DNA of 40,990 bases. Origin: Acidimicrobiaceae bacterium (GTDB lineage: Bacteria > Actinomycetota > Acidimicrobiia > Acidimicrobiales > Palsa-688). Shown one piece after another: positions 16,403 to 40,358 of this stretch; position 1 is the first letter of the stretch, and each line of letters opens with the position of its first letter. Below the pieces are notes generated by a model. The model ran no database searches. It was not told the DNA's origin and saw nothing but the letters and a program-made list of their open reading frames with translations. The translations under genes were made by a program, and so were the position numbers. The stretch is taken from contig PMHH01000155.1 in the NCBI GenBank assembly GCA_003156595.1, positions 1-40,990 on the forward strand. The letters run 5' to 3'.

Positions 16403-17596
16403 TCAGGCCAGCGGCCCCCGCCCATAGCGAGTGAGCCGCGCCGGCTCACCGTCGGTCACGAGCACCAGGTCCTGCTCGAGGACACCTCCGACACCGTCGA
16501 CCGCCACCCACGCCGTTACGGCCAGGACGGTTCCGGCCGCCAGCTGAGCCGACTGACCGACGCGGTGCCCAATCAGGGGGAGCTCGGCCCCGAGCCCCAC
16601 CCCACGAACGAAGGGTTCGGGCGGAGGGGCCTCGCCGGTGGAATCCCAGACCCGGCACAACTCCGCGCCAGTGGTGCCGGCTCGGCAGGCGTCCAGGACC
16701 GCCTGCAGCGTCTCCCGGCTCCGCTGGGCCAGGCGCCGCTGGGCCGGGCTGGGCACCATGGCCCCGACCACCCAGGTGCGAGCCAGCGTCCCCTCGTAGC
16801 CGGCGTAGAACGCGCCCGGGTTGAGGACGACGAGCTCACCGGGGGCAAGGCAGCGGTCGGTGGCGAGCCGGCGCAGCCGCACCGGGCCCTGGCGAGGGGT
16901 GGCGCAGACCACCGCCTCGGTCGGCGGGGTGGGCGCACCAAGCCCGGCAATCGCCTCTGCGTAGACTCCGAGCAGCTGGCGTTCGGACACTCCAGGATCC
17001 AGCGCCGCGACCAGCGCGGAGAGGGCCGCTTCGGCGATGCCGGCCGCCGACACGATGCATGCCAGTTCGTCGGGGGTCTTCGGCGTCCGGGCCCGAGATA
17101 GCACCGGGGCCGCATCCACCACGGCCGCGTGGGGGCAGAGGGCGGCCAGCAACTGGCGGGCGCCCGGGCTGAAACCGTCTGTCCCAACCTGGGCGGCGTC
17201 GCCAAGGCCGGCGATGGCGCCCAGGTTCGAGGCCAGGATGGCGGGGTTCCATGACAGCCCGAACAGCTCGTCATGACCGATCTCCGGCGGCACGCCCGCG
17301 TCCCACGTCGACAGTAGGTGCACCCGTCCGGTCGAGCGGACGACGAGGCAGGCCGGTCCGAACGGGCGCGTTCCGGCTGTCCACAGCTGCTGGGCGCCGG
17401 ACGCGTAAGCCACATTGGCCGGGCGGCCCAGGACCAGGACATCGACTCCGCCGGCGGCCATGGCGTCGAAAAGCCGGCGCCGGCGCTCGGCTCGGAGCCG
17501 GGCGAAGTCGATCTGGTCGGACGCGCCTGTGAGGCCGAGCACGCCGGCGCCGGCGCCGGCGATGGATCCGGCCCCCGGGCCGCCCGCCGCGCTCAC
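16403..17596 (-). CDS. M24-fold protein lacking metal ligands (pseudo-peptidase)
   Basis: A 397-residue protein with the creatinase/prolidase (M24) layout: an N-terminal domain then a pita-bread domain beginning near RARTPKTPDELACI. Aligned with its upstream neighbour, all five metal ligands are replaced: Asp by Asn259, Asp by Thr270, His by Arg331, Glu by Thr361 and Glu by Gln375. Binuclear metal hydrolysis is therefore unlikely. The fold seems intact with no frameshift, so it is probably a structural or regulatory partner, or a metal-free enzyme as creatinase is. GTG 17596 overlaps the stop of the intact paralogue by 4 bp, implying equimolar synthesis. Residues 6-22 are Gly/Ala-rich. Confidence 0.88.
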   Translation of the reverse strand: MSAAGGPGAGSIAGAGAGVLGLTGASDQIDFARLRAERRRRLFDAMAAGGVDVLVLGRPANVAYASGAQQLWTAGTRPFGPACLVVRSTGRVHLLSTWDAGVPPEIGHDELFGLSWNPAILASNLGAIAGLGDAAQVGTDGFSPGARQLLAALCPHAAVVDAAPVLSRARTPKTPDELACIVSAAGIAEAALSALVAALDPGVSERQLLGVYAEAIAGLGAPTPPTEAVVCATPRQGPVRLRRLATDRCLAPGELVVLNPGAFYAGYEGTLARTWVVGAMVPSPAQRRLAQRSRETLQAVLDACRAGTTGAELCRVWDSTGEAPPPEPFVRGVGLGAELPLIGHRVGQSAQLAAGTVLAVTAWVAVDGVGGVLEQDLVLVTDGEPARLTRYGRGPLA

Positions 17597-18819
17597 CAGG
17601 CCCCGACAAACGGGTCGTAGGGATGGGCGCTGAGCGGCACCCATCCGTCGTCGGTGATGGCGACGATGTCCTCGGCGCGATACCCGGCCGCGCCGTCATC
17701 CCAGATGACTGGCTCCAAGACGAACACCATCCCGGGCTGCAGAATCAGACGCTCGTCGAAGGACGCGCCGAGGTCGGTGCCGATGAGCGGCATTTCGGCG
17801 CTGTCTGTCCCCACCCCATGGGCCAGGTAAAAGTGTTCGATCCACGGCTTCACGCCCTCGTTGGCCGCGATCGCCGTCTGGCCGAGCTCCAATGCGGTGG
17901 TGCCTGGCTGACAGCGTTCTAGCACCGCCTCGACCACCGCCGCCCACCGGTCGAACTGCGCTTGCTGGCGAGCGCTGGGCGCCGGGTCGGCCCCCACGAT
18001 CCAGGTTCGGCCGAAGTCGGAGGCGTAGCCCTGGTAGGTGATGCCTGAGTCGACCCAGATCACGTCTCCTTCTCGGAGGAGGCGGTCGCCGGTCGCGAGA
18101 GGGAAGGCGATGTCACCATGAGTGGTCCACGGCCCGCCGGCGCGCATTGTCGGCATGACCTGCCAGATCGGGTCGATGGCGTTGGTAGTGGCGCCCAACT
18201 CGAATACCCGACGCAGGAACCGGGCGGTGAGGTCGGTCTGGCGCAACCCGGGTCGGAGCATCGCCTGGACATCCCACATAGCCAGCTCGTTGATGCGTTG
18301 GGCGGCGCGGATGCACGCCAACTCGTCCGGCGTCTTGCACAGCTTGGCCGCCCCGAGCACCGCCGCTGCGCTGGTGAACTCGCGGTCTGGGAGACCCCGA
18401 AGCATGGCGTGGGTGAGCTCGTCGCACCCGAGCCGCGCCCCTGGCTCGAACAGCTCGTCGAGCGCCCTCTTGATCGTCGTCACCCCTTCGTCCAGCTCGG
18501 GGTACAACGGGCCGTGCACGAACTCGGTCGGCAGCTCCGAGGGGGCCCCCTCTGGATGGGCGGTAAAGAGGTGGGCGGCCGGCGCGCCAGAGACCACGAT
18601 CGCCACCGTCCGGTCAAGGACCGCGTGGCTGCTGTCGACGGCGGGCGCTACCGCGCCGGTGGCGTACGCCACCGCGCTGGTGCCCATCAACACCAGGCCG
18701 TCGAGGCCAGCCGCTCCCAGCTGGTGCTGCAGCTTTTCGCCACGATCCCTGCGCATCCGGACGAGATCGGGAGCCGCAGGGATCGGCGCTCCGGCTATCA
18801 ACGATCCCACCTCCCCCAT
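17593..18819 (-). CDS. M24-family metallopeptidase (Xaa-Pro-peptidase-like)
   Basis: A 408-residue protein with an N-terminal creatinase-like domain and a complete M24 pita-bread site: Asp257 (WVDSG), Asp268 (SDFGRTW), His334 (AHGVG), Glu369 (LEPVIW) and Glu383 (RAEDI). Family members hydrolyse Xaa-Pro bonds or related C-N bonds. Similar genes occur in actinobacterial lipid and steroid clusters without a settled role. I chose ATG 18819; TTG 18858 is in frame but lies inside the operator at 18850-18884. The gene is divergent from the ACAD operon and coupled to the ligand-less paralogue downstream. Confidence 0.9.
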   Translation of the reverse strand: MGEVGSLIAGAPIPAAPDLVRMRRDRGEKLQHQLGAAGLDGLVLMGTSAVAYATGAVAPAVDSSHAVLDRTVAIVVSGAPAAHLFTAHPEGAPSELPTEFVHGPLYPELDEGVTTIKRALDELFEPGARLGCDELTHAMLRGLPDREFTSAAAVLGAAKLCKTPDELACIRAAQRINELAMWDVQAMLRPGLRQTDLTARFLRRVFELGATTNAIDPIWQVMPTMRAGGPWTTHGDIAFPLATGDRLLREGDVIWVDSGITYQGYASDFGRTWIVGADPAPSARQQAQFDRWAAVVEAVLERCQPGTTALELGQTAIAANEGVKPWIEHFYLAHGVGTDSAEMPLIGTDLGASFDERLILQPGMVFVLEPVIWDDGAAGYRAEDIVAITDDGWVPLSAHPYDPFVGAW

Positions 18820-18849: not shown

Positions 18850-18884
18850 GCTGTCCAACTGAACAGAGGTCGTGGTTGGACAGC
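18850..18884. promoter_or_regulatory. TGTCCAA-N17-TTGGACA operator, copy 1
   Basis: Perfect 10-bp arms (GCTGTCCAAC at 18850-18859, GTTGGACAGC at 18875-18884) lie in the divergent promoter of the M24 pair and the ACAD-ligase-MaoC operon. The core TGTCCAA-N17-TTGGACA (18852-18882) recurs with identical 31-bp span at 39594-39624, beside a TetR gene. The first 11 bases, TGTCCAACTGA, are identical in both. This is good sequence evidence for a shared regulator; binding itself is inference. Confidence 0.75.
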
Positions 18885-18916: not shown

Positions 18917-20197
18917 TTGGACTACGACTTCGGCGAGCGGGCCTCAAAGCTGCGGAGCCGGTTGCGCGAGATGATCGCGGCCGAGATCCCAGCCGGCTAT
19001 CTTGGCGCCTTCACCGACGATCCGGCGGACCTCCACATCGCCCAGCACTTCTGCCGCCGCTTGGCCGAGGAGGGCCTCCTCACCGTGTCGTGGCCAGAGG
19101 AATATGGAGGGGGCGGCGGATCGGTGTGGGAGCAGACCGTCGTGCGGGAGGAGATGTGGTCCCATCACGAACCGCGCGGCGCCCAGTACATGGGGCTCAA
19201 CTGGGTCGGCCCGGCCATCATGGCGTTCGGTACCGACGCCCAAAAACAACGCTTCCTTCCGCCGATCGCCGCCGGTGAGGTGATCTGGTGCCAGGGGTTC
19301 AGCGAACCGGACGCCGGATCCGATCTGGCCTCGCTCACGACCCGTGCCGAACCTGACGGCGAAGGCCTCCGCATCACCGGGCAGAAGATCTGGACTTCCT
19401 ACGCGGAGATGGCCCAGTGGTGTGTGCTGGCGGCCCGGGTCGGTGTTCCCGGGGCCAACGGGGCCAAGAAGCACGAGGGCATCACCATCTTCCTCGTCCC
19501 GATGAATCGAGAGGGGATCACCGTGCGGCCCATTCGCAGCATGCTCGGCCCCCACCACCTCAACGAGTGCTTCTTTGACTCCGTACCGGTTGAAGCCGAC
19601 GAAGTGCTGGGCGGCGTTGGGCAGGGATGGAACGTCATCCGCCGGGCGCTCGCCCACGAGCGGGTCGGCATCGCCCGCTACGCCCGTTGCGACCGGCTCA
19701 TGTCGCAATACACCGGCAAGGCGGACGGATGGCGCGCCCTGCCGGCCGGGCTACGCCAGCAGTGGGTGCGCGCCCTGGTGCAGATCCGGGTCGCCCGGCT
19801 CCTCGCGTACCGCGCCGTCGCCGAGCAGGAGGCCGGCCAGCCGCGCGACGCCACCGCTAGCGTGGCCCGCCTGGCCGTGACCCAGTGCGACCAGCAGGTG
19901 GCGGAGCTCCTGTTCCAGGCCATCGAGGACCGAAGCCTGGAAGGCTCCGACACCGGCGTGGAAAGCAAAGCCGCACCGAATCCGGCCGGGTCCAGTACTG
20001 CTGCGATTCCCGAGCGGCCGCCTTTTACCGACAAGCCATTGTCGGTAAAGGGCGGCCGCCAACGAAGTCACGCCTTTCTGGACGGCGCCATCGAGGACCA
20101 CTGGCGCTACGCCCAGGCCGCCACCGTGGCCGCCGGCACCATCGAGATCCAGCGCATGATCGTGGCCCGCGCCCTCCTTGGGACTCGGTCCTCGTGA
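18917..20197 (+). CDS. Acyl-CoA dehydrogenase with a palindromic in-frame insert
   Basis: A 426-residue ACAD with FSEPDAGSD, TGQKIWTS and the C-terminal AAGTIEIQRMIVARALLG helix. The stretch between VAELL and EDHWRY is about 35 residues longer than in the related ACAD at 3101-4300 and includes a Ser/Pro/Ala-rich run and a near-perfect DNA palindrome (20014-20059). The frame stays open, and both flanks keep the family pattern. TTG 18917 is chosen as start because GAGGGA sits 7 bases upstream; GTG 18872 lies inside the operator. Its stop overlaps the next ACAD by 4 bp, and the two probably form one heteromeric enzyme. Confidence 0.9.
   Translation: MDYDFGERASKLRSRLREMIAAEIPAGYLGAFTDDPADLHIAQHFCRRLAEEGLLTVSWPEEYGGGGGSVWEQTVVREEMWSHHEPRGAQYMGLNWVGPAIMAFGTDAQKQRFLPPIAAGEVIWCQGFSEPDAGSDLASLTTRAEPDGEGLRITGQKIWTSYAEMAQWCVLAARVGVPGANGAKKHEGITIFLVPMNREGITVRPIRSMLGPHHLNECFFDSVPVEADEVLGGVGQGWNVIRRALAHERVGIARYARCDRLMSQYTGKADGWRALPAGLRQQWVRALVQIRVARLLAYRAVAEQEAGQPRDATASVARLAVTQCDQQVAELLFQAIEDRSLEGSDTGVESKAAPNPAGSSTAAIPERPPFTDKPLSVKGGRQRSHAFLDGAIEDHWRYAQAATVAAGTIEIQRMIVARALLGTRSS
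20014..20059. repeat. 46-bp palindromic element inside an ACAD gene
   Basis: Arms 20014-20033 and 20040-20059 are complementary over 20 bp except for one position (a G-T pair as RNA), with the 6-base loop AGCCAT. The outer ends read GCGGCCGCC. It encodes part of the extra segment (ERPPFTDKPLSVKGGR) without breaking the frame. The structure resembles in-frame palindromic elements such as those of Rickettsia, or a small non-autonomous mobile repeat. I found no second copy in this window. Confidence 0.75.
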
Positions 20198-21147
20198 ACC
20201 TGGAGCTGCCGGACGAGGCCGTGCAGTTCGGGGCGACGGCGGAGAAGGCCCTCACTGCGCTCGGCGGGGTCGACCTGGCCCGAGACGCAGAGAGGGAGCG
20301 GGAGCCGGATATCCGATTGGCAAAGGTAGGCAATGCGATCGACAGCCTGGGCGCCGACCAGCTCGATCCCCGCGTCGACATCGAAACGGCAGCCGCCGCC
20401 GGCGAGCTCTGCCGCGTCGCGGGGCGGCTCGCCATCCCCTACCCGGTGGTCGCGGTCCTGCTCCGAGATCCCGTGGACCTGTTGCCGTTCGCGCTGGTGC
20501 CGGACGACCGTTGCCGAGCTGACCACGGCGATCTGTTCTCGGAGTGGCGGGTCGCCGCACCGGGCGGGCAGCAGGCCGTTGCCATGCCGGTCGGGTCACG
20601 TTTCGGCTCCAAGCTCGGTCCGTTCGTCACGGACTTGACGCCTACCGGCGAGTGGCAAGGGACCGCCCCTGGTGACGTGGCGCTGCACTTGACCTTGACC
20701 TCATGGCGGATACTGGGCACCACCGAGCGATCCCTGGAGCTGGCCATCGATCACGTCGGCGAGCGGGTGCAATTCGGCCAACCGCTGTCGGCGTTCCAGG
20801 CGGTCCAGTTCCAACTGGCCGACGCCGCAGTCGGCACGGACGGGCTGCGGGAGTTGTGCCACTTCACGTTGTGGCGACTCTTTGCCGATCCCGACGCCGG
20901 GCTAGCCGATGCCCTGGCCTTGCGGCTCCATGCCGTGGACACCGCCCGGGCCGTGTTGCGAACCAGTCAGCAGCTGCACGGCGCGGCCGGCCTGTGCGAC
21001 GAGTACGACGTGTCGGTGCTCGCCCGTCACGTTCAGCCTGACCTCCGCTTGCCTTTCGGATCGGAACGGACCTCGGCCGAACTCGTCGAGGCCGTGTCCC
21101 GGCTGGGATTCGCCAGCCTCTTTCCCCAGGGCGGCCTGGACCCATGA
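20194..21147 (+). CDS. Acyl-CoA dehydrogenase-like subunit (short)
   Basis: A 317-residue ACAD-family protein, about 50-80 residues shorter than its neighbours. The C-terminal domain is recognisable (VQFGQPLSAFQAVQFQLADAAVG, then LHGAAGLCDEYDVSVLARHVQPDL). The GGxGFTWE segment that carries the acidic base in related subunits reads GAAGLCDEYD, and the SEPxAGSD loop is absent. It is most likely the non-catalytic or partner subunit of the ACAD just upstream. GTG 20194 overlaps that gene's stop, and its own stop overlaps the ligase ATG; both overlaps are 4 bp. Confidence 0.88.
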   Translation: MNLELPDEAVQFGATAEKALTALGGVDLARDAEREREPDIRLAKVGNAIDSLGADQLDPRVDIETAAAAGELCRVAGRLAIPYPVVAVLLRDPVDLLPFALVPDDRCRADHGDLFSEWRVAAPGGQQAVAMPVGSRFGSKLGPFVTDLTPTGEWQGTAPGDVALHLTLTSWRILGTTERSLELAIDHVGERVQFGQPLSAFQAVQFQLADAAVGTDGLRELCHFTLWRLFADPDAGLADALALRLHAVDTARAVLRTSQQLHGAAGLCDEYDVSVLARHVQPDLRLPFGSERTSAELVEAVSRLGFASLFPQGGLDP

Positions 21148-22856
21148 CCACCCTCGAAGGGCCGCCGCTATCGGAGGCTCAAGGGGTGGGCGCCCTGACG
21201 ATCGGCGGGTTTCTCACCGAGATTTGCGCCCGCTTCGCGGCCAACGAGGCGCTGGTCTTCGACGACCCCCTGCGGGGCGGTGCCACGCGGCGATGGAACT
21301 ACGCCGAGCTCGGCCGGCAGGCGCATCAGGTCGCCGCGGCCCTGGTGGCAGGCGGAGCAGGCAAAGGTACCCGGGTCGGCATTTTGATGGGCAACCGCCC
21401 TGAGGCGGTGGCGGCCTTGTTCGGCGCTGCACTGGTGGGTGCGGTCGCCGTCCCGCTTTCGACCTTCTCCGCAGCGCCGGAGTTGGCCTACATGCTCCGT
21501 CACGCCGACATCGAGGTGCTGCTCACCCAGACAGAGATGCTCCACCGCCGCTTCGTCGACGACGTCGTGTCCGTCTGCGCCGAGCTGGACGAGCCCGGCG
21601 GGCAGGAGCCGGGCGAGCCGGGCCGCGGCCGGATGACGTCGCTCGGCTTCCCGTTCCTGGACCGGGTGGCGGCGATCGGGCTCGACCTGCCGCGGGGTCG
21701 AGTGGAGACGTGGGAAGGCTTTCTGGCGAGGCGCGACTCCGTGTCCGACGAGCTGATCGACGCCCGAGCCGCTCAGGTGTCGCCCTCAGACGACGGCCTC
21801 ATCACGTACAGCTCGGGAACGACGGACCGTCCCAAGGGCATGCTCCACGCCCACCGTTCACCCACCCTCCAGTTCTGGCTGCAGGCCGGCGTGTTCGGAC
21901 GGCACCAGGCCACCAGGATGTGGACATCGTTGCCGATGTTCTGGACGGCGGGATTGAACACCGCCATGGGTGCCACCCTCGCCGCCGGCGGGTGCTGGGT
22001 GATGCAGGAGTCCTTCGCAGCCGGCGAGGCGCTGCGGCTCATGGCCCGGGAGCGAGTGACCGAGCCCTACACCCTCCCCCACCAGACCGCCGCCCTCGAG
22101 GAGCACCCCGACTGGGCTCATACGGACCTCTCGTCGCTGCGATGCGTCTTCGGCAAGTCCGCCTTCGCCCGCCACCCGACCGTCACCGGTGACACGGACT
22201 GGAACATGCCGGTCGCCTACGGGCTCTCGGAAACCTGTTCGGGCTTCGCGACCCACTACTCCGACACGCGGCGCGACCTGCTCAAGACCAGCATGGGCCG
22301 GCTGCTGCCCGGCAACCGGATGCGCGTGGTGGATCCCGAGACCGGGCGGACCCTCGGGCCCAACCAGAATGGCGAACTGGCCATCGCCGGGCCGACGCTC
22401 ATGGAGCACTACGTCAAGCAGCATCGCGACGAGTGCCTCGACGCCGACGGTTTCTTCCGGACCGGTGACGCCGGTTTCTTCGACGACGACGGCTTCGTGC
22501 ACTGGACGGGGCGGCGATCCGAGATGATCAAGACGGGCGGCGCCAACGTTTCGCCGGCCGAACTGGAGGTGGCGCTGCGGGCGTGCCAGCCGGTGAAGCT
22601 GGTCAGGGTGCTCGGCCTGCCCCACTCCCGCCTCGGCCAGGTGGTGGTGGCCTGCGTGGTGCTCAAGGACGGAGCCAACGCCAGCGCCGGCGACATCCAG
22701 CAATTCCTCCGCCAGCGCGTCGCCTCCTACAAGGTCCCCAAGCAGGTGCTGTTCTTCACCGACGGCGAAATTCCCATGACCACGAGCGACACCAAGGTCC
22801 GCGACGCCGAGCTGATGCGGCTGGTGACTGCACGACTGGAAGGAGCCACACGTTGA
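21144..22856 (+). CDS. Acyl-CoA ligase (AMP-forming, ANL superfamily)
   Basis: A 570-residue adenylate-forming enzyme that activates a carboxylic acid with ATP and CoA. The motifs in order are TYSSGTTDRPKGMLH (P-loop-like, about 220), YGLSETCSG, TGDAGFFDDDGFVHWTGRRSEMIKTGG with the hinge region, and the late catalytic Lys in SDTKVRD. All are intact. Between the ACAD subunit and the MaoC hydratase it would make the CoA ester used by the operon. The carboxylate cannot be identified; FadD17- or FadD19-like ligases of steroid side chains are one analogy. Confidence 0.93.
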   Translation: MTTLEGPPLSEAQGVGALTIGGFLTEICARFAANEALVFDDPLRGGATRRWNYAELGRQAHQVAAALVAGGAGKGTRVGILMGNRPEAVAALFGAALVGAVAVPLSTFSAAPELAYMLRHADIEVLLTQTEMLHRRFVDDVVSVCAELDEPGGQEPGEPGRGRMTSLGFPFLDRVAAIGLDLPRGRVETWEGFLARRDSVSDELIDARAAQVSPSDDGLITYSSGTTDRPKGMLHAHRSPTLQFWLQAGVFGRHQATRMWTSLPMFWTAGLNTAMGATLAAGGCWVMQESFAAGEALRLMARERVTEPYTLPHQTAALEEHPDWAHTDLSSLRCVFGKSAFARHPTVTGDTDWNMPVAYGLSETCSGFATHYSDTRRDLLKTSMGRLLPGNRMRVVDPETGRTLGPNQNGELAIAGPTLMEHYVKQHRDECLDADGFFRTGDAGFFDDDGFVHWTGRRSEMIKTGGANVSPAELEVALRACQPVKLVRVLGLPHSRLGQVVVACVVLKDGANASAGDIQQFLRQRVASYKVPKQVLFFTDGEIPMTTSDTKVRDAELMRLVTARLEGATR

Positions 22857-24016
22857 CGAATCTGGACACGACCGACCTCGACCAGTACATGGGCGTCCCG
22901 ATGGAACCGGGCGAGCTCAAGGAGCCGGTGACGGTCAACGACATCCGCCGGTGGGTGCAGGGGATGCACTATCCCAACCCGCTTCACTACGACGAAGACT
23001 GGGCCGCCGCCGGCCGCTTCGGGCGCATCGTGGCCCCGCAGTCCTTCACGGTCGCCTGCGACACCAGCCACGGTTGCTCGCCCGCCCAGGTGGGCCGCAT
23101 ACCGAACTCGCACCTGATCTTCGGCGGGGATGAGTGGTGGTTCTTCGGCCCGCGAGTCGAGCCGGGCGACCGGCTGGTCTGCCACCGGATGCCGTTCGAC
23201 TACAAGGTGTCGGACACCAAGTTCGCCGGTCCGACCTGCTTTCAGCGGGGCGACACGTTGTACATCAATCAGGCAGGTGAAAGAGTCGCCCAACAGCGGT
23301 CTACCTCGATTCGCTATGAAGTACGCCAAGCGCACGAGAAGAAGCTGTTTGACGAGCCGAAGGAACCGGAGTGGACCGACGAGCGGCTCCTGGAGCTGGA
23401 GGACATCAAGTCCGGATTCATAGCCCAGATCCAGGACCTGCGCCACGACAAGCGGGTGTTCGGCTCGATCGAGCCGGGCCAGGAGTTGGCCACCAACGTG
23501 CTCGGTCCGCACAACCTGGCCAGCTTTACCACCGAGTGGCGCGCCTACCCCATGACGACGTGGGGCGCGACGCTGAAGGGGCCGACGACGGTTAGGGCCG
23601 AGGCGTTGGGCTACACCAAAGAGATGAGCGGCTTCGAAGGCGACCGCAAGATGGAGCGGGTAAACCCTGAGCTCACAGACGGCGCCTACTACGGACCGTC
23701 CCGGGGGCACCTGCAGCCCCGCTGGGCCCAACACGTCGGCATGGCCCGCGGCTACGGCTACGGGGCGTCGATGGGAGCCTGGATCCTCGACTACGTGGCG
23801 GCGTGGGGCGGCGAGTGGGCGTTCATCACGCACTCGGTAGCCCAGTACCGCCATCCCGCGTTCACCGGGGACGCCACCTTTGTCCGGGGCCGCGTCACCG
23901 ACACTCGGGTTGAGCGGCGCCGGCGCCACATCGCCACGGTGGCGGTAGAGCTGACCAACCAGGACGAGATGGTGATGGCCAAGGGGACCGTTGAGGTCGA
24001 GCTACCTGCTGACTGA
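22853..24016 (+). CDS. MaoC-like (double hot-dog) dehydratase/hydratase
   Basis: A 387-residue protein with two hot-dog units. Unit 1 shows the MaoC-like pattern near residues 45-70 (NPLHYDEDWAAAGRFGRIVAPQSF, with a candidate Asp/His pair). Unit 2 ends in YRHPAFTGDATFVRGRVTDTRVE, typical of the hot-dog core. Such double proteins hydrate 2-enoyl-CoA thioesters with bulky acyl groups. TTG 22853 overlaps the ligase stop by 4 bp and has AAGGAG 7 bases upstream, which fixes the start. It is the last gene of the operon and overlaps the convergent TetR gene by 15 bp. Confidence 0.87.
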   Translation: MTNLDTTDLDQYMGVPMEPGELKEPVTVNDIRRWVQGMHYPNPLHYDEDWAAAGRFGRIVAPQSFTVACDTSHGCSPAQVGRIPNSHLIFGGDEWWFFGPRVEPGDRLVCHRMPFDYKVSDTKFAGPTCFQRGDTLYINQAGERVAQQRSTSIRYEVRQAHEKKLFDEPKEPEWTDERLLELEDIKSGFIAQIQDLRHDKRVFGSIEPGQELATNVLGPHNLASFTTEWRAYPMTTWGATLKGPTTVRAEALGYTKEMSGFEGDRKMERVNPELTDGAYYGPSRGHLQPRWAQHVGMARGYGYGASMGAWILDYVAAWGGEWAFITHSVAQYRHPAFTGDATFVRGRVTDTRVERRRRHIATVAVELTNQDEMVMAKGTVEVELPAD

Positions 24017-24595
24017 ACGGGACCGGGCGCCGGCCAGACGCACCATGCTGTCGAGGGCGCCCTCGAGCACACCGACCACCGCGGTGCTGTTCTCGCCCGG
24101 CACCAGGAACACCGACAGCACCACCCGCAGCAGCAACTCGTTGAGCTCAGCGACGGTGACCCAGCCCTCCCGCACCGGGCTGGCATTGTGCATGACCGGC
24201 GCCAGCAACTCCTCGGTGATGCGGTGGAACACCGGCAGCTGCCGGCGGAGAAAGCCGAGCACGAACGCCGGCTCGGTGTCGATCAGCAGCGTCAGGGCCG
24301 GGTGTTGCCGCAGGTAGGTGATGATGTACTCGGCGACCTTTTCGAGACGAAGCTCGTCCTCGGGGACGCCGGCGAGCGCCGCTCTGAGCCCCTCTGCGAA
24401 GCGATCCTGCTCATACTCGGCGACCACCGCCAAGAGGTCTTCCTTGGTGGGAAAGTACCGATATATGGTCCCGCGTGAGAGCCCGGCCCGCTCGCTGACG
24501 TCGCTCATCGTCATGCGGCGCAGCCCGACCCGGCCCATCGACAGCAGAGCGGCCTCGAGGATGCGATCGCGCGTCGCGGGGACGAGTAGAGCCAT
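24002..24595 (-). CDS. TetR-family transcriptional regulator
   Basis: A 197-residue repressor. The helix-turn-helix runs about 8-52 (RDRILEAALLSMGRVGLRRMTMSDVSERAGLSRGTIYRYFPTKEDL is the family pattern). The C-terminal effector domain has the helical character expected. ATG 24595 is the natural start; a GTG a few codons upstream is possible. It lies 50 bp downstream of the P450 gene on the same strand and is likely co-transcribed with it. It is a candidate to bind the 20-bp palindrome at 25911-25930 upstream of that P450. Confidence 0.9.
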   Translation of the reverse strand: MALLVPATRDRILEAALLSMGRVGLRRMTMSDVSERAGLSRGTIYRYFPTKEDLLAVVAEYEQDRFAEGLRAALAGVPEDELRLEKVAEYIITYLRQHPALTLLIDTEPAFVLGFLRRQLPVFHRITEELLAPVMHNASPVREGWVTVAELNELLLRVVLSVFLVPGENSTAVVGVLEGALDSMVRLAGARSRSVSR

Positions 24596-24645
24596 TGGGT
24601 GTGCGACGCTACTGCCGACGCCATCGCGCCGCGGCCTTTGAGCCG

Positions 24646-25881
24646 TCAGGGCCCGCCGAAGACCAGCGGCAGCTGGAGTACGGTTCGCAGCATCGGGGTC
24701 CAGATCAGCTCGGCGCCCTCGGCGATCCGGTAGTCCGGAATCCGGCGGTGCCACTCCCGCATCGCCACCCGAAGCTCCAGCCGGGCCAGGTGGGATCCCA
24801 GGCACCGGTGAATGCCGCCGCCGAAGGCGGAGTGCCGGTTGACCGACCGGTCGAAGTCCACCTGGTCGGCACCCTCGACCGTCGCCGGGTCGGTGTTGGC
24901 CGCCCCGACGAACAGCAGCACCGATTCACCCTTGTGGACCGGGCAACCTTGCAAGTCGGCGTCCTCGGCCGCGATACGTGCCACCGCGCTGACTGGTGAC
25001 TCCCACCGGAGCAGCTCCTCGACCGCCGCGGGCACGACACCGGGATCGGCGACGATCCGCTGCCGCCGGGCCGGGTTATCGGCTAGGTGCACCCAGAAGC
25101 AGCAGAGGCTGTCGGTCACCGTGTCGAGCCCCGCCAGGATGAACAGATAGCAGACATCCATGATCTCGTCGCGGGTCAGCCGGATGCCATCCACCTCCGC
25201 CTCCAGGAGGTCGCGTAGCAGTCCGTCACCCGGTTCCCGCCCCAGCCGGTCGAGGGCGGACTCGAAGTACTCGTAGCACTCCTGGCCGGCGGTGGCGCGG
25301 GCCTTGGCCATCTTGTGGACCTCTGTCTCGCCATCGGCGCGGACAATCCCTTCCTTGATGTGCAGCAGGAAGTCGAGGTCCTCGAGCGGCAGTCCCAGCA
25401 GGCGCAGGAAGACGGTGGACGGCAGCGGGATGGCAAACTCCGAGGTGAAGTCACACGCACCGCGCTCGATAAACCGGTCGATCAACTGGTTGACGAGGAC
25501 GGTGACGTCCTGCTCCAGCTTGGCCATCTGGCGGGGGGCGAAATAGGGGTCGAGCAGGACCCGGTACTTCTTGTGGTCGGGTGGGTCGATCTGGAGCGGG
25601 ATCATGGGGCGGTCGTTGCCCAGCCCGCCCATGCCGCTGCCGAACTGCGACGAGAACACCTTCGGGTTGCGCAACACCTGGTCGACGTCGGTGGCGCGCG
25701 ACACCACAATGGTCGGCGTACCGCCGGGCAACTCGAGCTCGTCGCGCTTGGGGGGTCCGTCGCGCAACCGCTCGAAAGCGGGTCGCGGATCGCGGGCGAA
25801 CTCGGGGTCGAGCATCAGCTCGACCATCCAACCCGGCTGCGATGCATCAATGGGTGGCTGACGGGTGTCGGTCTGGCTCAT
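24646..25881 (-). CDS. Cytochrome P450
   Basis: A 411-residue soluble bacterial P450 that hydroxylates a substrate using electrons from a ferredoxin. The I-helix AGLDTVTD contains the acid-Thr pair, EELLRWESP gives the ExxR helix, and the heme loop FGGGIHRCLG places the Cys thiolate at 360. It is a close paralogue of the P450 at 36024-37196 (shared LLDPxFAPRQMA and EFAIPLPS stretches). Its own promoter region with a 20-bp palindrome lies in the 110-bp gap upstream. Confidence 0.95.
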   Translation of the reverse strand: MSQTDTRQPPIDASQPGWMVELMLDPEFARDPRPAFERLRDGPPKRDELELPGGTPTIVVSRATDVDQVLRNPKVFSSQFGSGMGGLGNDRPMIPLQIDPPDHKKYRVLLDPYFAPRQMAKLEQDVTVLVNQLIDRFIERGACDFTSEFAIPLPSTVFLRLLGLPLEDLDFLLHIKEGIVRADGETEVHKMAKARATAGQECYEYFESALDRLGREPGDGLLRDLLEAEVDGIRLTRDEIMDVCYLFILAGLDTVTDSLCCFWVHLADNPARRQRIVADPGVVPAAVEELLRWESPVSAVARIAAEDADLQGCPVHKGESVLLFVGAANTDPATVEGADQVDFDRSVNRHSAFGGGIHRCLGSHLARLELRVAMREWHRRIPDYRIAEGAELIWTPMLRTVLQLPLVFGGP

Positions 25882-28084: not shown

Positions 28085-28693
28085 TTACTCCGTAGTCACG
28101 CCGAGGGCCGGGAGGCAGAACCGCAGGACGTGCGCCCGGGCCTGATCACGATCCATCGGATGCTCGCGGCGCGCCTGCGGGCTGACGAAGCTCCAGACCA
28201 GGTCGAATATGGCGGCCGCGTCGCGACCCGGGTCGGCCTCGGGGAACGACCCGTTATCCGCGCCCCGGACCAACACCTGTCGCAACGGCGACACCAGCTG
28301 GGATCGAAGGTAGGCCACCTCCTCGTCGTAGCCCGCCGTCTGGCGGGCCGCCACGTTGAACATCACCAGCCGCTGGATGCGGCGCCTGTCGTAAGCGATC
28401 GCCAGCATCTCGTCGAGCCAGCCGTCAACGGCGTCGAGCGGCGTGACGGCCTCGTCCACGCGCCTGACCACGTCGGCCACCTCGCGCCCCGACGCGGTGC
28501 GAAACATGGCCAGGAGCAGGTCGTCCTTGGAGCGGAACTGCCGGTAGAAGGCGCGCGTCGACAGCCCGGCCTCGTCGAGGATGTCCTGCACGCTGGCGCG
28601 CTGAAATCCGTTGCAGCGCATCACCTTGAGGGCAGCATCCATGAGCTGGCCGCGCTCGGCCTGGGCCTCCGCCGACAGCGGTGCCTCGGTCAC
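28085..28693 (-). CDS. TetR-family transcriptional regulator
   Basis: A 202-residue TetR protein. The helix-turn-helix lies about 18-62 (ALKVMRCNGFQRASVQDILDEAGLSTRAFYRQFRSKDDLL pattern). The effector domain is of usual length and ends FCLPALGVTTE. GTG 28693 begins 2 bp after the aldolase stop, so it is inside the long minus operon and presumably follows its expression. No operator-like repeat was found immediately upstream, which is expected for an internal gene. Confidence 0.9.
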   Translation of the reverse strand: MTEAPLSAEAQAERGQLMDAALKVMRCNGFQRASVQDILDEAGLSTRAFYRQFRSKDDLLLAMFRTASGREVADVVRRVDEAVTPLDAVDGWLDEMLAIAYDRRRIQRLVMFNVAARQTAGYDEEVAYLRSQLVSPLRQVLVRGADNGSFPEADPGRDAAAIFDLVWSFVSPQARREHPMDRDQARAHVLRFCLPALGVTTE

Positions 28694-28695
28694 CC

Positions 28696-29901
28696 CTAGG
28701 CCAGGCCGCGGGTGAGCAGCATGCATCCGACGGTCGAGCCGGCCCCGTTGGCGACCACGGCCACCTCGGGGCGCCCGCCCACCTGGCGGTCACCACCGTC
28801 CCCGCGCAGCTGCAGCACGGCCTCATGGATCAGGCCAAAGCCGTGCAGGCGACCAGCCGACAGCTGGCCGCCGCTCGTGTTGAGGGGCAGCTCCCCGTCG
28901 AGGGCGATGCGGGACCCGCCCTCGAGGAATGAGGCCGCGCCACCCGTCGGGCAGAAGCCCAGCGCCTCCAGCCACAGCACCGTGATCATGGAGAAGCCAT
29001 CGTAGAGCTGGGCCACGTCGACGTCCGCGGGGGTGAGGTCCGCCCGCTCCCACAGGTGGGCAGCCGGGTCGCGCCCCGGAAAGGTGGCCAGATCCTCCCA
29101 CTGGTCCCATGACGGGCGGCCCCGCACAGCGGTCCCGACCGCGTGGATCTGGACCGGCACGTGAGCGGCGTCAGACGCGGTGTCCGTATGGGAAACCACC
29201 AAGGCGGTCGAGCCGTCGCAGGGCAGGTCGCAGTCGTACAGGCAGAGCGGTTCGGCGATCATGCGGGCGCCCAAGTAGTCGTCGAGGGTCATGGGCTCGC
29301 GCAGGAGGGCCTTGGGGTTGAGAGCGGCGTGCCGGCGGTTGCTCATGGCGATCTGGCCGAGCGACTCGCGTGTCAGGCCGAAGTGGTGGAAGTGGTACTG
29401 GGCAGAGTAAGCCAGCCAATCGACCGCCGACATGGCACCGAAGGGCACCAGGTACTGGAACGGCCCGGGCACCCCCCGGCCCATCCCCGACGATCCGATC
29501 CCGGCGCGCCCGCCCGAGCCCTGCGCGCTCGACTCGGTCACGGTGCGGTACACCAGTACGTGGCGGGACAGCCCGGTGGCGATGGCCATGCAGGCGTTTA
29601 CCACCGCCTGGAGCTGGGCGGCCCCGTCGAGACCACCGCTGTACCAATCGACGGATAGGCCGAGGGCGTCGATGACGTCGTTGGGCCCGGGACCGCCGAA
29701 GCCGCCGCTGGCCGTACCCCTCCCCCCGCCGGGATAGGTCGACAACCCGTCGATGTCATCAGGTTGGAGTCCGGCGTCCGCGATGGCGGCCTGCACCGAC
29801 TGCATGGTCAGCTCCATCTCCGACAAGCCTGTCCGCCGGCCGACGACCGATTGGCCGATCCCGGAGATGTAGGAGAGGCGCTCGCCGATCCGGGTGGTCA
29901 C
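28696..29901 (-). CDS. Ltp2-like aldolase (SCP2-thiolase superfamily)
   Basis: A 401-residue thiolase-fold protein. The position of the thiolase nucleophile Cys reads WYSGGLDGAAQL, so thiolysis is unlikely. Similar Cys-less proteins (Ltp2 of actinobacterial cholesterol degradation) perform a retro-aldol cleavage of a tertiary hydroxyacyl-CoA together with a DUF35 protein. Later motifs are CDGSTALVVS, LYDGFS and GRLHGFGLIHEA. GTG 29901 overlaps the DUF35 stop by 4 bp, matching that partnership. It would release propionyl-CoA or a similar unit from a branched side chain (inference). Confidence 0.85.
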   Translation of the reverse strand: MTTRIGERLSYISGIGQSVVGRRTGLSEMELTMQSVQAAIADAGLQPDDIDGLSTYPGGGRGTASGGFGGPGPNDVIDALGLSVDWYSGGLDGAAQLQAVVNACMAIATGLSRHVLVYRTVTESSAQGSGGRAGIGSSGMGRGVPGPFQYLVPFGAMSAVDWLAYSAQYHFHHFGLTRESLGQIAMSNRRHAALNPKALLREPMTLDDYLGARMIAEPLCLYDCDLPCDGSTALVVSHTDTASDAAHVPVQIHAVGTAVRGRPSWDQWEDLATFPGRDPAAHLWERADLTPADVDVAQLYDGFSMITVLWLEALGFCPTGGAASFLEGGSRIALDGELPLNTSGGQLSAGRLHGFGLIHEAVLQLRGDGGDRQVGGRPEVAVVANGAGSTVGCMLLTRGLA

Positions 29902-36023: not shown

Positions 36024-37196
36024 TCACGGCAACCCGAAGACCAGGGGAAGTCGGTCGATCTGACGGAGAGCGGGCGAGTAGACCAACTCGGTGCCAGGAG
36101 CCAGGTGGTACTCAGGGATACGGCGGTGCCATTCGCGGAGCGCCACCCGCAGTTCCAGGCGCGCCAGATGCGATCCCAGACACCGGTGGACTCCTCCCCC
36201 GAAAGCCAGGTGACGGTTCGGGTTGCGGGTCAGGTCCACGCGGTCGGCGCCCGGGATCGCCCGTTCGTCGGTATTGGCTGTCCCTAGCCCCACCCCTACC
36301 CGGGTGCCCTTGGCGATAGGGCACCCATCGAGCTCGGCGTCGGCGGCGGCCACCCGGCCGACGGTGGTCACCGGGGTTTCCCACCGGAGCAACTCCTCGA
36401 TGGCGGAGGGGATGATGGCCGGATCGTCGACGATCGCCTGCCTGGCCCCGGGATGGCTCGCCAGGTACGCAAGGTCACATTCGAGGGCGTCGGTCACCGT
36501 GTCGAGGCCCGCCAGGAGAAGGAGAAAGCACATACCGAGGATCTCGTCCTCGGTGAGCCGGTCGCCGGCGACCTCCGCGTCCAGGAAGCGACTCAGGAGG
36601 TCGTCGCGCCGGTGGTCCGCACGCTCCTCGAGGGCCTGCTCGAAGTAGGCGTCGATGCGCTCGGCCGACCGGCGCTGATACGCCTGCACCTCCTCGACTG
36701 TCGTGCCCTGGGGGCGGATGATCCCGTCCTTCATGCTGAGGAACATTTCGAGGTCCGATAGGGGCATACCCATCATGCGCAGGAACACCGCCGAGGGCAG
36801 GGGGATGGCGAATTCGGCGCCGAACTCGCACTCGCCCCGCCCGATGAAGGCGTCGATGAGGTCGTTGACCAGCCCGGTGATGTCGTCTTCCAAGGGGGCC
36901 ATCTGGCGCGGCGCGAATATGGGGTCGAGCAGGCGGCGGTACTTGACGTGGTCCGGGGGATCGACCTGCAGCGGTATGAGCGGCCGCTTCTGTCCCAGGT
37001 CCACCGCCTCCATCGCCGACGAGAAGATCTCCGGGTGCTGAAGGGCGAATTCCACTTCGCCCCTCCGGACGACCTGCACGGACCCGAACAGGCCCGGGAC
37101 CACCCCGCCCACGTCGCGAAGCCGGCGCCAGAAGGGATGGGGATCGTTGGCGTGGGCCGGATCGGTGAACTCGGCGGGATCGAATGGGTCGGTCAC
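36024..37196 (-). CDS. Cytochrome P450
   Basis: A 390-residue P450 paralogous to the one at 24646. I-helix AGLDTVTD, ExxR in EELLRWETP and heme loop FGGGVHRCLG with Cys339 are intact. The two proteins are alike from the B-C region to the C-terminus, so a duplication followed by divergence of substrate range is likely. GTG 37196 overlaps the stop of the upstream ACAD by 4 bp; the unit is ACAD-ACAD-P450 in transcription order, suggesting that hydroxylation and desaturation act on one substrate. Confidence 0.95.
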   Translation of the reverse strand: MTDPFDPAEFTDPAHANDPHPFWRRLRDVGGVVPGLFGSVQVVRRGEVEFALQHPEIFSSAMEAVDLGQKRPLIPLQVDPPDHVKYRRLLDPIFAPRQMAPLEDDITGLVNDLIDAFIGRGECEFGAEFAIPLPSAVFLRMMGMPLSDLEMFLSMKDGIIRPQGTTVEEVQAYQRRSAERIDAYFEQALEERADHRRDDLLSRFLDAEVAGDRLTEDEILGMCFLLLLAGLDTVTDALECDLAYLASHPGARQAIVDDPAIIPSAIEELLRWETPVTTVGRVAAADAELDGCPIAKGTRVGVGLGTANTDERAIPGADRVDLTRNPNRHLAFGGGVHRCLGSHLARLELRVALREWHRRIPEYHLAPGTELVYSPALRQIDRLPLVFGLP

Positions 37197-38401
37197 GAGC
37201 GCGGTAACCCCAGAACCTTTTCGGCGATGATGTTGCGCTGGATCTCCGACGATCCGGCCGAGATGGTGAGACCGAAGGACCGGAAGTACTGCTCCATCCA
37301 GGTGCTGGCTTCGTCAACGGCCAGGAACGGTCCCCTGGCCCCTTGGGGACTGACGGTTACCGACGCCGCGCCTTCCACCTCGGCGGCCACCAAGCCCAGG
37401 CGCTGCCGGGTCTCGCTGGAGAACAACTTCATGAGCGCCTGCTCCGGGGCGCTCCCGCCTCGCATCAGCTTGCCGAAGCCCCGGTACCCGAGGCAGCGGA
37501 CCGCCTGGGTGTCGACGTACAGGTCGGCGACCATCGCCGCCGCGACGGCGCGCTCGCCGCTGCGCAACTTGGACAGCCACCCGGGAGCCGCGTCGAGCAT
37601 GTGCCGCATCGAGGCGTCCAGGGCCATGACACTGCTGACCCACACCATCCCCCGCTCGTGGGCGAGTGAGCCGTTCGCCATGGCCCAACCGTCATTGAGG
37701 GTGCCAACCAGGTTGGCCGCGGGTACGACGACGTCAGTGAAGAACACCTCGTTGAGCTCGGGATACTCCGGTGCGACGAGCTCGGGGAGCGGGCGCACTG
37801 AAACCCCGGGAGTATCGATGTCGACGAGGACGACGCTGATCCCCTTGTGCTTGGCCGCGCTCGGGTCGGTGCGGCAGAACAAGAAGCAGAAGTCGGCGTG
37901 GTTGGCGCCCGACGTCCACACCTTCTGGCCGTTGATCACGAATTGATCACCGTCGAGAACGGCCCGCGTCGACAAGGCGGCCAGGTCGCTGCCCGCTCCG
38001 GGCTCGCTCATCCCCAAGCACCCGGTCCGCTCGCCCCGGAGGATCGGCATGGCGTAGCTGCCGATTTGCTCTTCGCTGCCGTAGTCGAGGATCGAAGGGG
38101 CGATGATGCCGAGGCCCTGAGGGTTGGTGCTCCGCGGCACGTCGGCGCGAGCCATTTCCTCCAGGTAGACCAACTGCTCGAGGGGGCTGGCGTTACGGCC
38201 GCCTCGCTCGGGAGGCCAGCCGGGGACCAGCCACCCGGCGTCGAACATGGTTCGGGTCCACCGCCTCGCCCACGGCGGCGCATGGCCCGAGGACAGCGCC
38301 GGATCGGCGGCCATCTCCTCGGGCGACGGTCGGTTGTCCGCCAGCCAGGCCAGGAACGTCTGGCGGAACCCCTCCACCGATCGGTCGAAGCTGAGTCTCA
38401 T
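37193..38401 (-). CDS. Acyl-CoA dehydrogenase, FadE-type
   Basis: A 402-residue ACAD. GMSEPGAGSDLAA (about 134-146), NGQKVWTSGANHADF and the C-terminal SAGSSEIQRNIIAEKVLGL helix are present. It is the larger, FAD-loop-bearing member of a pair with the ACAD at 38398-39579, to which it is joined by an ATGA overlap. It probably forms an alpha2beta2 enzyme with it (inference from steroid-degradation FadE pairs). A coupled P450 follows. Confidence 0.94.
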   Translation of the reverse strand: MRLSFDRSVEGFRQTFLAWLADNRPSPEEMAADPALSSGHAPPWARRWTRTMFDAGWLVPGWPPERGGRNASPLEQLVYLEEMARADVPRSTNPQGLGIIAPSILDYGSEEQIGSYAMPILRGERTGCLGMSEPGAGSDLAALSTRAVLDGDQFVINGQKVWTSGANHADFCFLFCRTDPSAAKHKGISVVLVDIDTPGVSVRPLPELVAPEYPELNEVFFTDVVVPAANLVGTLNDGWAMANGSLAHERGMVWVSSVMALDASMRHMLDAAPGWLSKLRSGERAVAAAMVADLYVDTQAVRCLGYRGFGKLMRGGSAPEQALMKLFSSETRQRLGLVAAEVEGAASVTVSPQGARGPFLAVDEASTWMEQYFRSFGLTISAGSSEIQRNIIAEKVLGLPRS

Positions 38402-39579
38402 GGGGCCTCGCTGCCGGCCGGTTCGTCGAGCACCAAGCCGAGCCTGCTGACGATCGCGGCCCGCTGCATCAGGGCGGATCCGAACAGGGCGTTTGCCGAC
38501 TTCGCCCGCTTGAGATAGAAGTGCAAGTCGTGCTCCCAGGTAAAGCCGACGCCCCCATGGAGTTGCAGGCCGTCCTGCACCACCAGGCGCTGGCAGTCCC
38601 CAGCCGCAGCCTTGGCCATCGCCACGGCCAGACCCCGCCGCTCATCGTCCTCCGCGATGGTGAGGGCGGCGAAATAGGCGAGAGAGGTGGCCCGCTCGAC
38701 GGCCAGGTACATGTCTACCAAGCGGTGCTTCAACGCCTGGAACGACCCGATCGGGCGCCCGTACTGCTCCCGGTCCTTGGCGTACTGCAAGGTGATCTCG
38801 AATATGGCCCGGCAGGTCCCGGTCATCCCGATGGCGATGGCGGCAGTCGCTTCCTGAATCGCCCGGTTGATCGTCTCCACTGCGCGGGGGTCACCGGGAG
38901 CCACCAGCATTCGGTCGGCCGGAACCGCCACGTTGTCGAGCAGCACCTCGGCGAGCGGCTGGGACGGATCTATGACATCGGCGGGCCGCGAGGTCAGGGA
39001 AGCCTGGGCCACGACGAACACGCCCAGACCCTCGTCGCCGCTGGTTCCCTCCTGGCGCGCCACCACCGCCACCTCGTCCGCGGTGGCGCCATCGAAGACA
39101 AACGATTTCTTACCGTCGAGCACCCAGCTGTCACCGACCGGCCGGGCCGTAGTGGCTACCGAGGCTGCCTCCCAGCGACCGTCGTCCTCGGCCAGGGCGA
39201 GGGTGCCCGTCGATCCGGCTTCGGCGACAGGCCGGAGGAACGTGTCCTGCTGCTCGGACGTGCCGGCCTGGCGCACCATGGGCACAAATTGGGTTGCCGT
39301 GCTGACAAAGGGGGTCGGTGCCACGGCGCGACCCAGCTCCTCGACGACCACCGCGAGCTCCACGTAACCCAGGCCCAGGCCGCCGAAGGGCTCGGGAATC
39401 GTCAGCGCCGGCCAATCGAGCTGGACCATCTGTCGCCACAGTGGGGCGGCACGGGAGGCGCCGTCGTCGGCCTTGGATTCGTAGACTTGGCGGACCATCG
39501 ATGGGGGGCAAGCCGTCGCCAGCACAGCGCGAACGGCGTCGCGCAGCTCCTGCTGGTCGTTGGTCAGCTCGAAATCCAT
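38398..39579 (-). CDS. Acyl-CoA dehydrogenase, FadE-type
   Basis: A 393-residue ACAD beginning MDFELTNDQQELRDAVR. The second half carries EQYGRPIGSFQALKHRLVDM and GGVGFTWEHDLHFYLKRAK, with the Glu that acts as base in related heteromeric ACADs; a SEPxAGSD loop is not seen (LALAEDDGR instead). ATG 39579 is the clear start. It heads the minus operon, divergent from the TetR gene across 69 bp with a TGTCCAA-type operator, so it is the best candidate target of that repressor. Confidence 0.94.
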   Translation of the reverse strand: MDFELTNDQQELRDAVRAVLATACPPSMVRQVYESKADDGASRAAPLWRQMVQLDWPALTIPEPFGGLGLGYVELAVVVEELGRAVAPTPFVSTATQFVPMVRQAGTSEQQDTFLRPVAEAGSTGTLALAEDDGRWEAASVATTARPVGDSWVLDGKKSFVFDGATADEVAVVARQEGTSGDEGLGVFVVAQASLTSRPADVIDPSQPLAEVLLDNVAVPADRMLVAPGDPRAVETINRAIQEATAAIAIGMTGTCRAIFEITLQYAKDREQYGRPIGSFQALKHRLVDMYLAVERATSLAYFAALTIAEDDERRGLAVAMAKAAAGDCQRLVVQDGLQLHGGVGFTWEHDLHFYLKRAKSANALFGSALMQRAAIVSRLGLVLDEPAGSEAP

Positions 39580-39593
39580 GTCGCTCCTAGTGT

Positions 39594-39624
39594 TGTCCAA
39601 CTGAGCAAGGGGCACACTTGGACA
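39594..39624. promoter_or_regulatory. TGTCCAA-N17-TTGGACA operator, copy 2
   Basis: TGTCCAA (39594-39600) and TTGGACA (39618-39624) sit between the divergent ACAD and TetR starts. Arms, 31-bp span and the TGTCCAACTGA start match the site at 18852-18882. The position at the TetR gene's own promoter suggests autoregulation, with that protein as the binding factor (inference). Confidence 0.75.
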
Positions 39625-39648: not shown

Positions 39649-40293
39649 TTGGCACGAAGTAGCAACACGGCGCCCCCTACGGTCCCGCCCAAGGGAACAC
39701 TCAACGACCGGAGGTGGCAGGAGGTACTGGACGCCGCCGCCGCCACGTTCGATGAGAAGGGCTACCAGGCGGCCACCCTCCAAGACGTGGCCTCCCGCGT
39801 GGACCTGTTGGCCCCGAGCCTCTACTACTACATCAAGACCAAGGAGGATCTGCTCTTCGGGGTCATGCAACGGGCGCACCAACTCGGTCTTCGGCTGATC
39901 GAGGAAGCACCCGAGCTAGCGGGCGCAGACGCCGAGACCCGCCTCGTCGAGTTCATCCGACGCTGGATGGGCGGCACCTACCCGCCCGAGGTCCGCATGG
40001 TGGAACGAGACCTGCGCCACCTCAGCCCGGCCCGTCAGGCCGAGGTGATGGGCTGGCGCGACCGCATGGATCATTATCTGGAAGACATCGTTCGCCAGGG
40101 GGTGACGGACGGCACCTTCGACGCCGACCTGGAGCCGAGCGTGGTGGCGAGCACCCTCTTCGTCGTCCTCAACTCGACGCCGACCTGGTGGCGGGCATCC
40201 GGGCGCCGGTCCTACGCCGAGCTGACGGAGTGGTACGCCAAACTGTTCGCGGGCGGCCTGCGATCAGAGCAGGGTCCTCGACGCGCCGTTTGA
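39649..40293 (+). CDS. TetR-family regulator (KstR2-like candidate)
   Basis: A 214-residue TetR protein with a recognition segment DVASRVDLLAPSLYYYIKTKEDLLFGVM, similar in layout to KstR2, the repressor of steroid ring catabolism. The C-terminal domain contains TWWRASG, like the VSVRWYRPGG stretch of KstR2-type proteins. TTG 39649 is the start, with GGAGG 7 bases upstream. It is divergent from the ACAD-ACAD-P450 operon. The operator in its promoter recurs at the M24/ACAD promoter, so it may coordinate both operons. The name is not assigned because the likeness is by eye only. Confidence 0.85.
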   Translation: MARSSNTAPPTVPPKGTLNDRRWQEVLDAAAATFDEKGYQAATLQDVASRVDLLAPSLYYYIKTKEDLLFGVMQRAHQLGLRLIEEAPELAGADAETRLVEFIRRWMGGTYPPEVRMVERDLRHLSPARQAEVMGWRDRMDHYLEDIVRQGVTDGTFDADLEPSVVASTLFVVLNSTPTWWRASGRRSYAELTEWYAKLFAGGLRSEQGPRRAV

Positions 40294-40319
40294 CACCCTC
40301 AGGATGACACCGGTAATCT
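40290..40319 (+). promoter_or_regulatory. Putative promoter of the ParB-like regulator gene
   Basis: TTGACA (40290-40295), a perfect -35 box, is followed after 18 bases by TAATCT (40314-40319), a partial -10 match. It overlaps the TetR stop codon and lies 40 bp before ATG 40359. The following leader is locally A+T-rich and contains CTAT-TCG-ATAG. Assigned by consensus only. Confidence 0.45.
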
Positions 40320-40358
40320 AACTTCTATTCGATAGATGAAGGTTCTCCGGGGGGTTTG

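Follow-up and report, generated by a model that had tools for sequence, protein, structure and literature searches.

The stretch of DNA analysed here (the window, 40,990 nucleotides, the entire contig C9 of an Acidimicrobiaceae genome) holds two copies of a long palindromic sequence, both exact matches to TGTCCAA-N17-TTGGACA and each within a divergent intergenic region. They lie at 18852-18882 (TGTCCAACTGAACAGAGGTCGTGGTTGGACA, hereafter O1) and 39594-39624 (TGTCCAACTGAGCAAGGGGCACACTTGGACA, hereafter O2); their first 11 bases are identical, and 9 of the 17 spacer positions agree when both are read in the same orientation. The surrounding 40 kb form a catabolic cluster with pairs of acyl-CoA dehydrogenases (ACADs), ligases, thiolases, hydratases, a CoA-transferase, P450s and, besides the TetR gene next to O2, two further TetR genes (24005-24805 and 28088-28726, both on the minus strand). 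This cluster is largely syntenic with those of two relatives, G003 and G004, where orthologs of the two further TetR genes occupy the same place.

O2 is a 31-bp imperfect palindrome (TGTCCAACTGAGCA-AGG-GGCACACTTGGACA, no strand assigned) in a TetR/ACAD divergent promoter, where it is a putative autoregulatory site; 24 nt separate it from the TetR start and 14 nt from that of the ACAD. To its right lies a TetR-family repressor gene (39649..40293, plus strand, TTG start), whose product, referred to as 39649, carries TetR_N and TetR_C_24 domains by Pfam and is the proposed binder of both O1 and O2. The leftward operon, on the minus strand, is led by an acyl-CoA dehydrogenase gene (38398..39579; Pfam ACAD N/M/C domains) with orthologs beside the operator in G003 and G004, followed by a second acyl-CoA dehydrogenase gene overlapping the first (37193..38401; assigned by Pfam, syntenic) and by a cytochrome P450 gene (36024..37196; Pfam p450, with 72-76% orthologs in L068/L071). 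The P450 genes at 24649-25881 and 36024-37196 are related, cross-matching at ~50% identity within one cluster. Beyond tetR, an open frame on the plus strand (40317-40988) is cut by the contig end; its window part has no Pfam match, it is conserved in G003 and G004, and the relatives' protein shows a DGAHRLAAA-like stretch that, by eye, recalls ParB-type domains.

O1 (31 bp, TGTCCAACTGAACA-GAG-GTCGTGGTTGGACA, no strand assigned) lies between an M24 gene and an ACAD operon, at a distance of ~34 nt from the ACAD start (18917) and of 32-50 nt from that of the M24 gene. Leftward, on the minus strand, are two M24-family genes assigned by Pfam Peptidase_M24, the first (17593..18819) encoding a protein of the creatinase/prolidase fold, whose real start may be the TTG at 18801 behind GGGGGAGG, and the second (16403..17644) downstream of it. 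Rightward, on the plus strand, the operon comprises an acyl-CoA dehydrogenase gene with a TTG start (18917..20197; assigned by Pfam, with a 74% ortholog in G004 that has no operator), a second acyl-CoA dehydrogenase gene of approximate start (20179..21147; Pfam Acyl-CoA_dh_1), an acyl-CoA ligase gene (21144..22856; Pfam AMP-binding, with orthologs in 6 of the 31 other family genomes) and, at its end, a MaoC/FAS1-dehydratase-like hydratase gene (22856..24016; Pfam FAS1_DH_region). The syntenic block of G003 and G004 does not contain the M24 pair (16403-18819), which in another family genome, G025 (L076 7741-10079), lies directly divergent from the ligase gene; this pattern suggests that the pair was inserted or lost here.

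The recurrence of the sequence is well above chance. The span, the coordinates, the common 11-base start and the divergent setting described in an earlier sequence-only reading are confirmed, as is the lack of a third full pair, none being found in the window when as many as 3 mismatches are allowed. That reading had also listed isolated halves at 1758, 4032 and 32146, which are present, and had missed a TTGGACA at 37569 within an acyl-CoA dehydrogenase gene. Of the combinations of 7-bp arms and gap that recur in the window, TGTCCAA/TTGGACA with its gap is the only one not made up of G and C alone; the remaining recurrent 7-bp inverted repeats are all pure GC, as expected at 69% GC. Over the genome (4,122,220 bases in 185 contigs, 77% complete), base composition predicts 0.0024 exact sites, so that the probability of two or more is ~3e-6. 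At 0-1 mismatch no TGTCCAA-N17-TTGGACA occurs beyond O1 and O2, while the 5 further matches at 2 mismatches are background, the reversed control pattern giving 4, and a scan with the 14-bp half-site yields no excess above its reversed control. A genome-wide regulon is therefore rejected, and with it the regulon of lipid genes that a one-mismatch scan had been expected to bring out. Neither a sigma-70-like promoter near O1 or O2 nor a terminator overlapping either was found, and a literature search with the half-site string returned unrelated papers only.

Conservation separates the two copies. Among 32 genomes of the same family, the exact pattern is found, besides the source, only in G003 and G004, each representing another genus. 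In both, the site is flanked by the ortholog of the acyl-CoA dehydrogenase gene 38398-39579 and, divergent from it, by a TetR gene whose product is 67-69% identical to 39649, so that the assignment of the second copy to a TetR promoter holds across genera. Alignment of the three TetR-promoter intergenic regions (TGTCCAA.TGTGC....TGCTC.GTTGGACA) leaves 25 of 31 positions invariant, including 11 of the 17 'spacer' positions, and the flanks have diverged in both sequence and length; judged by this alignment, O2 represents a phylogenetic footprint. The operator and a close TetR ortholog are found together in 3/3 genomes against 0/29 of the other family members, although the three TetR orthologs are related and their conservation does not amount to three independent observations. 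The close orthologs of 39649 in the family are those of G003 (67%) and G004 (69%) only; the next-closest homolog, in G030 (42%), is without the site. More generally, no such operator is found upstream of the homologous TetR genes of G030, G077 (50% and 43%), G198 (40%), G529 (47%), G002 and three named genomes, the homologs of 40-50% identity all being without it.

Wider scans added little. A looser search of the family for the 31-bp palindrome at 3 mismatches gave one added, chance-like match in G006, and in the 397 genomes searched across the order the exact pattern adds just two matches, one in G098 and one within a coding region of G215, the same number as with the reversed control. The G098 match (L010/L079, C84:5782-5812; TGTCCAAGTGCAGCTTCGGGGCACTTGGACA), in another family of the order, has 11 symmetric bases on each side and lies in the promoter region from which a xanthine/CO-dehydrogenase-like and an ABM-monooxygenase-like gene diverge (names given by eye). 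No close homolog of 39649 was found in G098, and the site could belong to a different TetR with a similar operator or be due to chance. A separate case is a Pseudonocardia MAG (L014), where a TetR gene at 6001, whose product is 31% identical to 39649, has upstream an exact KstR2-type motif (ACCAAGCGCTTGCT) and, ~25 bp beyond, a second similar repeat; this TetR may be a KstR2-like protein.

The internal organization of the operator is informative. Its consensus is a 31-bp palindrome, TGTCCAAcyGwGCa-N3-tGCwCrgTTGGACA, and the invariance of 11 of the 17 inner bases shows that N17 is no unconstrained spacer. The G003 site is a nearly full palindrome, with 6/8 inner pairs complementary, and the pairing at inner positions 10, 12 and 13 is kept in all three TetR-promoter sites and not in O1, whose outer arms are perfect but whose right inner half is degraded and off consensus, with 1/8 inner pairs complementary. 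Conserved positions fall into four blocks centred near 4, 11.5, 20.5 and 28, and each half, TGTCCAACyGwGCA, has a weak internal symmetry, TGnnCA-nn-TGnnCA (the internal palindrome of the 14-bp half, TGnnCAnnTGnnCA, is too weak for significance by itself). From these features we infer that the operator is composed of two adjacent 14-bp TetR sites, each equal in size to a KstR or KstR2 site, for two dimers, a reading that replaces the earlier one of a single long-spaced operator exceeding the 14-bp sites of KstR and KstR2. The sequence properties expected of an operator for a dimer of dimers are present: the operator, at 31 bp, is longer than ~20 bp, and both the inner G.GC/GC.C elements and the outer half-sites are conserved. 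Binding of one TetR dimer to the outer arms alone, across a true 17-bp spacer, would agree with the outer 7-bp arms being the most strictly conserved part and the only part that O1 keeps intact; it is nevertheless highly improbable given the invariant inner bases and the geometry of the protein, the recognition helices of a TetR dimer being 31-38 angstrom, or about one turn, apart (PMC4150764), far less than the 24 bp between the arm centres. Two adjacent dimers thus fit the four blocks better than one, and the long span is not unprecedented, since TetR operators of 22-32 bp occupied by two dimers are known.

The protein encoded next to O2 has the expected features of a TetR/AcrR regulator, namely a helix-turn-helix (PF00440, TetR_N, 43 bits), a helical ligand domain (PF17932, TetR_C_24, 74 bits) and, in the divergent promoter of its own gene, a palindromic operator. 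Its AlphaFold model (pLDDT 82.5) is all-helical and matches the TetR fold, with 3dcf, PfmR, KstR2 and AibR as nearest structures; its neighbours in sequence or fold, which also include DarR and FadR, contain several acyl-CoA responsive proteins (KstR2, AibR with isovaleryl-CoA, FadR with stearoyl-CoA). The label 'KstR2-like' can be retained for membership of a shared TetR subfamily and for nothing closer: identity to the KstR2 structures 4w97/4w1u is 22-23%, two TetRs other than KstR2 score higher, and orthology to KstR2 is rejected, orthologs showing >50% identity (PMC3068626). The operators are likewise not KstR2 operators (AnCAAGnnCTTGnT), there being no CAAG-nn-CTTG in either, and identity with KstR (NF033703) is dismissed by a score of 20.4 bits against a curated cut-off of 280. 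By sequence comparison, 39649 is a distant relative of KstR2 within a common subfamily only.

A difference in the recognition helix accompanies the operator. LAPSLYYYI, with Ala-Pro at its start, is common to the three operator-associated TetRs, whereas the motif is LxGS(L/V/I)YYYI, with x-Gly instead of Ala-Pro, in eight homologs (31-50% identity) and LKGSLYYYI in a further 47% homolog, from G529. In DarR the Lys-Gly pair makes base contacts with the operator (PMC10636190); its correspondence with the Ala-Pro of 39649 rests on an alignment by spacing to the YY pair. Proline at this place is not unique to the group, as 3dcf has Lys-Pro, and Ala-Pro does not set it apart among TetRs at large.

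Because the window encodes three TetR genes, another regulator, either the product of 28088-28726 or of 24005-24805 or one encoded outside the window, might bind the sites and 39649 be merely one of its targets. Co-occurrence fails to single out 39649, as G003 and G004 also carry orthologs of 28088 (61-66%) in this cluster, and their distribution likewise matches the operator. For 24005 this is not so, since a close ortholog (70%) exists in G025, which is without the operator. Both candidate genes, moreover, are internal to runs of leftward genes and have no operator where they start, while O2 lies in the 39649 promoter in all three genera. A TetR usually regulates itself from a site in its own promoter, and control by another regulator is accordingly regarded as quite unlikely.

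O1 is a feature of one lineage. No counterpart was found upstream of the orthologous genes in G003, G004, G025, G026, G027 and G001, and in G025 the divergent region between the M24 pair and the ligase gene is without operator. Its absence from G003, G004 and G025 implies that it was either gained in the source lineage or lost in others, and the link between the operon pairs is, on present evidence, peculiar to the source genome. The earlier proposal of one regulon joining the M24 pair, the ACAD-ligase-MaoC operon and the ACAD-P450 operon is thus plausible in this genome, but its first two members depend on O1 and have no equivalent link in two relatives. Could O2 be the only functional site, with O1 a chance resemblance or decaying relic and the M24 pair and ligase-MaoC operon outside the regulon? 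Its absence from relatives and its degraded right inner half are in keeping with this, as is the existence of a chance-like exact match in the G215 coding region. Yet the expectation for an exact second site in a 41-kb window is ~2e-5, and O1 lies in a divergent promoter with 11 contiguous and nine spacer bases in common with O2, so that a non-functional O1 seems unlikely. Its flanks are unlike those of O2, which rejects an origin of O1 by passive duplication of the promoter.

Taken together, these data make it probable that both 31-bp palindromes are operators of TetR 39649-40293, a cluster-restricted, autoregulated repressor acting as side-by-side dimers on four transcription units and responding to an acyl-CoA inducer. 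In the absence of ligand, its dimers would occupy both operators; most likely each 14-bp half holds one dimer, the two lying side by side with 17 bp between their centres. Both divergent start codons are 14-50 bp away from their operator, and a single occupied operator may therefore repress both directions: O2 would repress tetR itself and the ACAD-ACAD-P450 operon, and O1 the M24 pair and the ACAD-ACAD-ligase-MaoC operon. The likely inducer would be an acyl-CoA intermediate of the cluster's substrate. The earlier interpretation is therefore partly supported, being right in outline (a local TetR operator, a small regulon) and wrong in detail (N17 is constrained, the repressor differs from KstR2, and O1 lacks conservation).

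A more far-reaching scenario, offered tentatively and somewhat doubtful, is that a clade of Ala-Pro TetRs recognizes, as side-by-side dimers, a new composite operator in which two inverted 14-bp sites abut with a centre-to-centre distance of 17 bp, and that one lineage gained O1 de novo, thereby capturing a second operon pair 20 kb away; if true, this would show a local regulon expanding in nature. The presence of O1 here against its absence from two relatives is in any case a small, clean instance of operator gain or loss in a conserved cluster, and the change in the recognition helix linked to the operator provides a testable point on TetR specificity. In addition, an uncharacterised TetR of a little-studied bacterial lineage now has a candidate operator and regulon, and the latter predicts co-induced catabolic operons that help to identify the substrate of the cluster.

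The kind of system described is already well known, both as cluster-local, autoregulated TetR repression of acyl-CoA catabolism and as regards long TetR operators. KstR2 (Rv3557c) is a TetR autorepressor with a 14-bp operator, three sites near kstR2 and distances of 22-82 bp from motif to start (PMC3068626). The present system resembles it in its divergent promoter, its very small cluster-local regulon of acyl-CoA catabolic genes, its 14-bp unit, similar operator-to-start distances and a similar predicted fold of 39649, and differs in the low identity of the regulators, the half-site (TGTCCAA versus CAAG), the 31-bp double operator and the other genes of the cluster. MAB_4384 of Mycobacterium abscessus has, in a divergent promoter, a 27-bp operator whose two 13-nt inverted repeats are 1 nt apart (PMC5895659), to be compared with the 14-nt repeats, 3 nt apart, of the present operator; the sequences are unrelated, and MAB_4384 controls the MmpS5/MmpL5 efflux pump, unlike the O1/O2 cluster. 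FadRSa of Sulfolobus acidocaldarius, a TetR with few sites in one lipid/beta-oxidation cluster and two stoichiometric binding modes (PMC6449355), is similar in that the candidate sites of 39649 are confined to one lipid cluster, and different in being archaeal, with a 16-bp motif and four sites. Operators for two TetR dimers include those of QacR (28 bp), CgmR (32 bp), Ms6564 (31 bp) and CprB (22 bp) (PMC4150764) and the 20-bp operator of DarR (PMC10636190); the dimers of CprB and DarR lie on opposite faces or on overlapping palindromes, whereas the blocks conserved in the present operator suggest neighbouring 14-bp sites without overlap.
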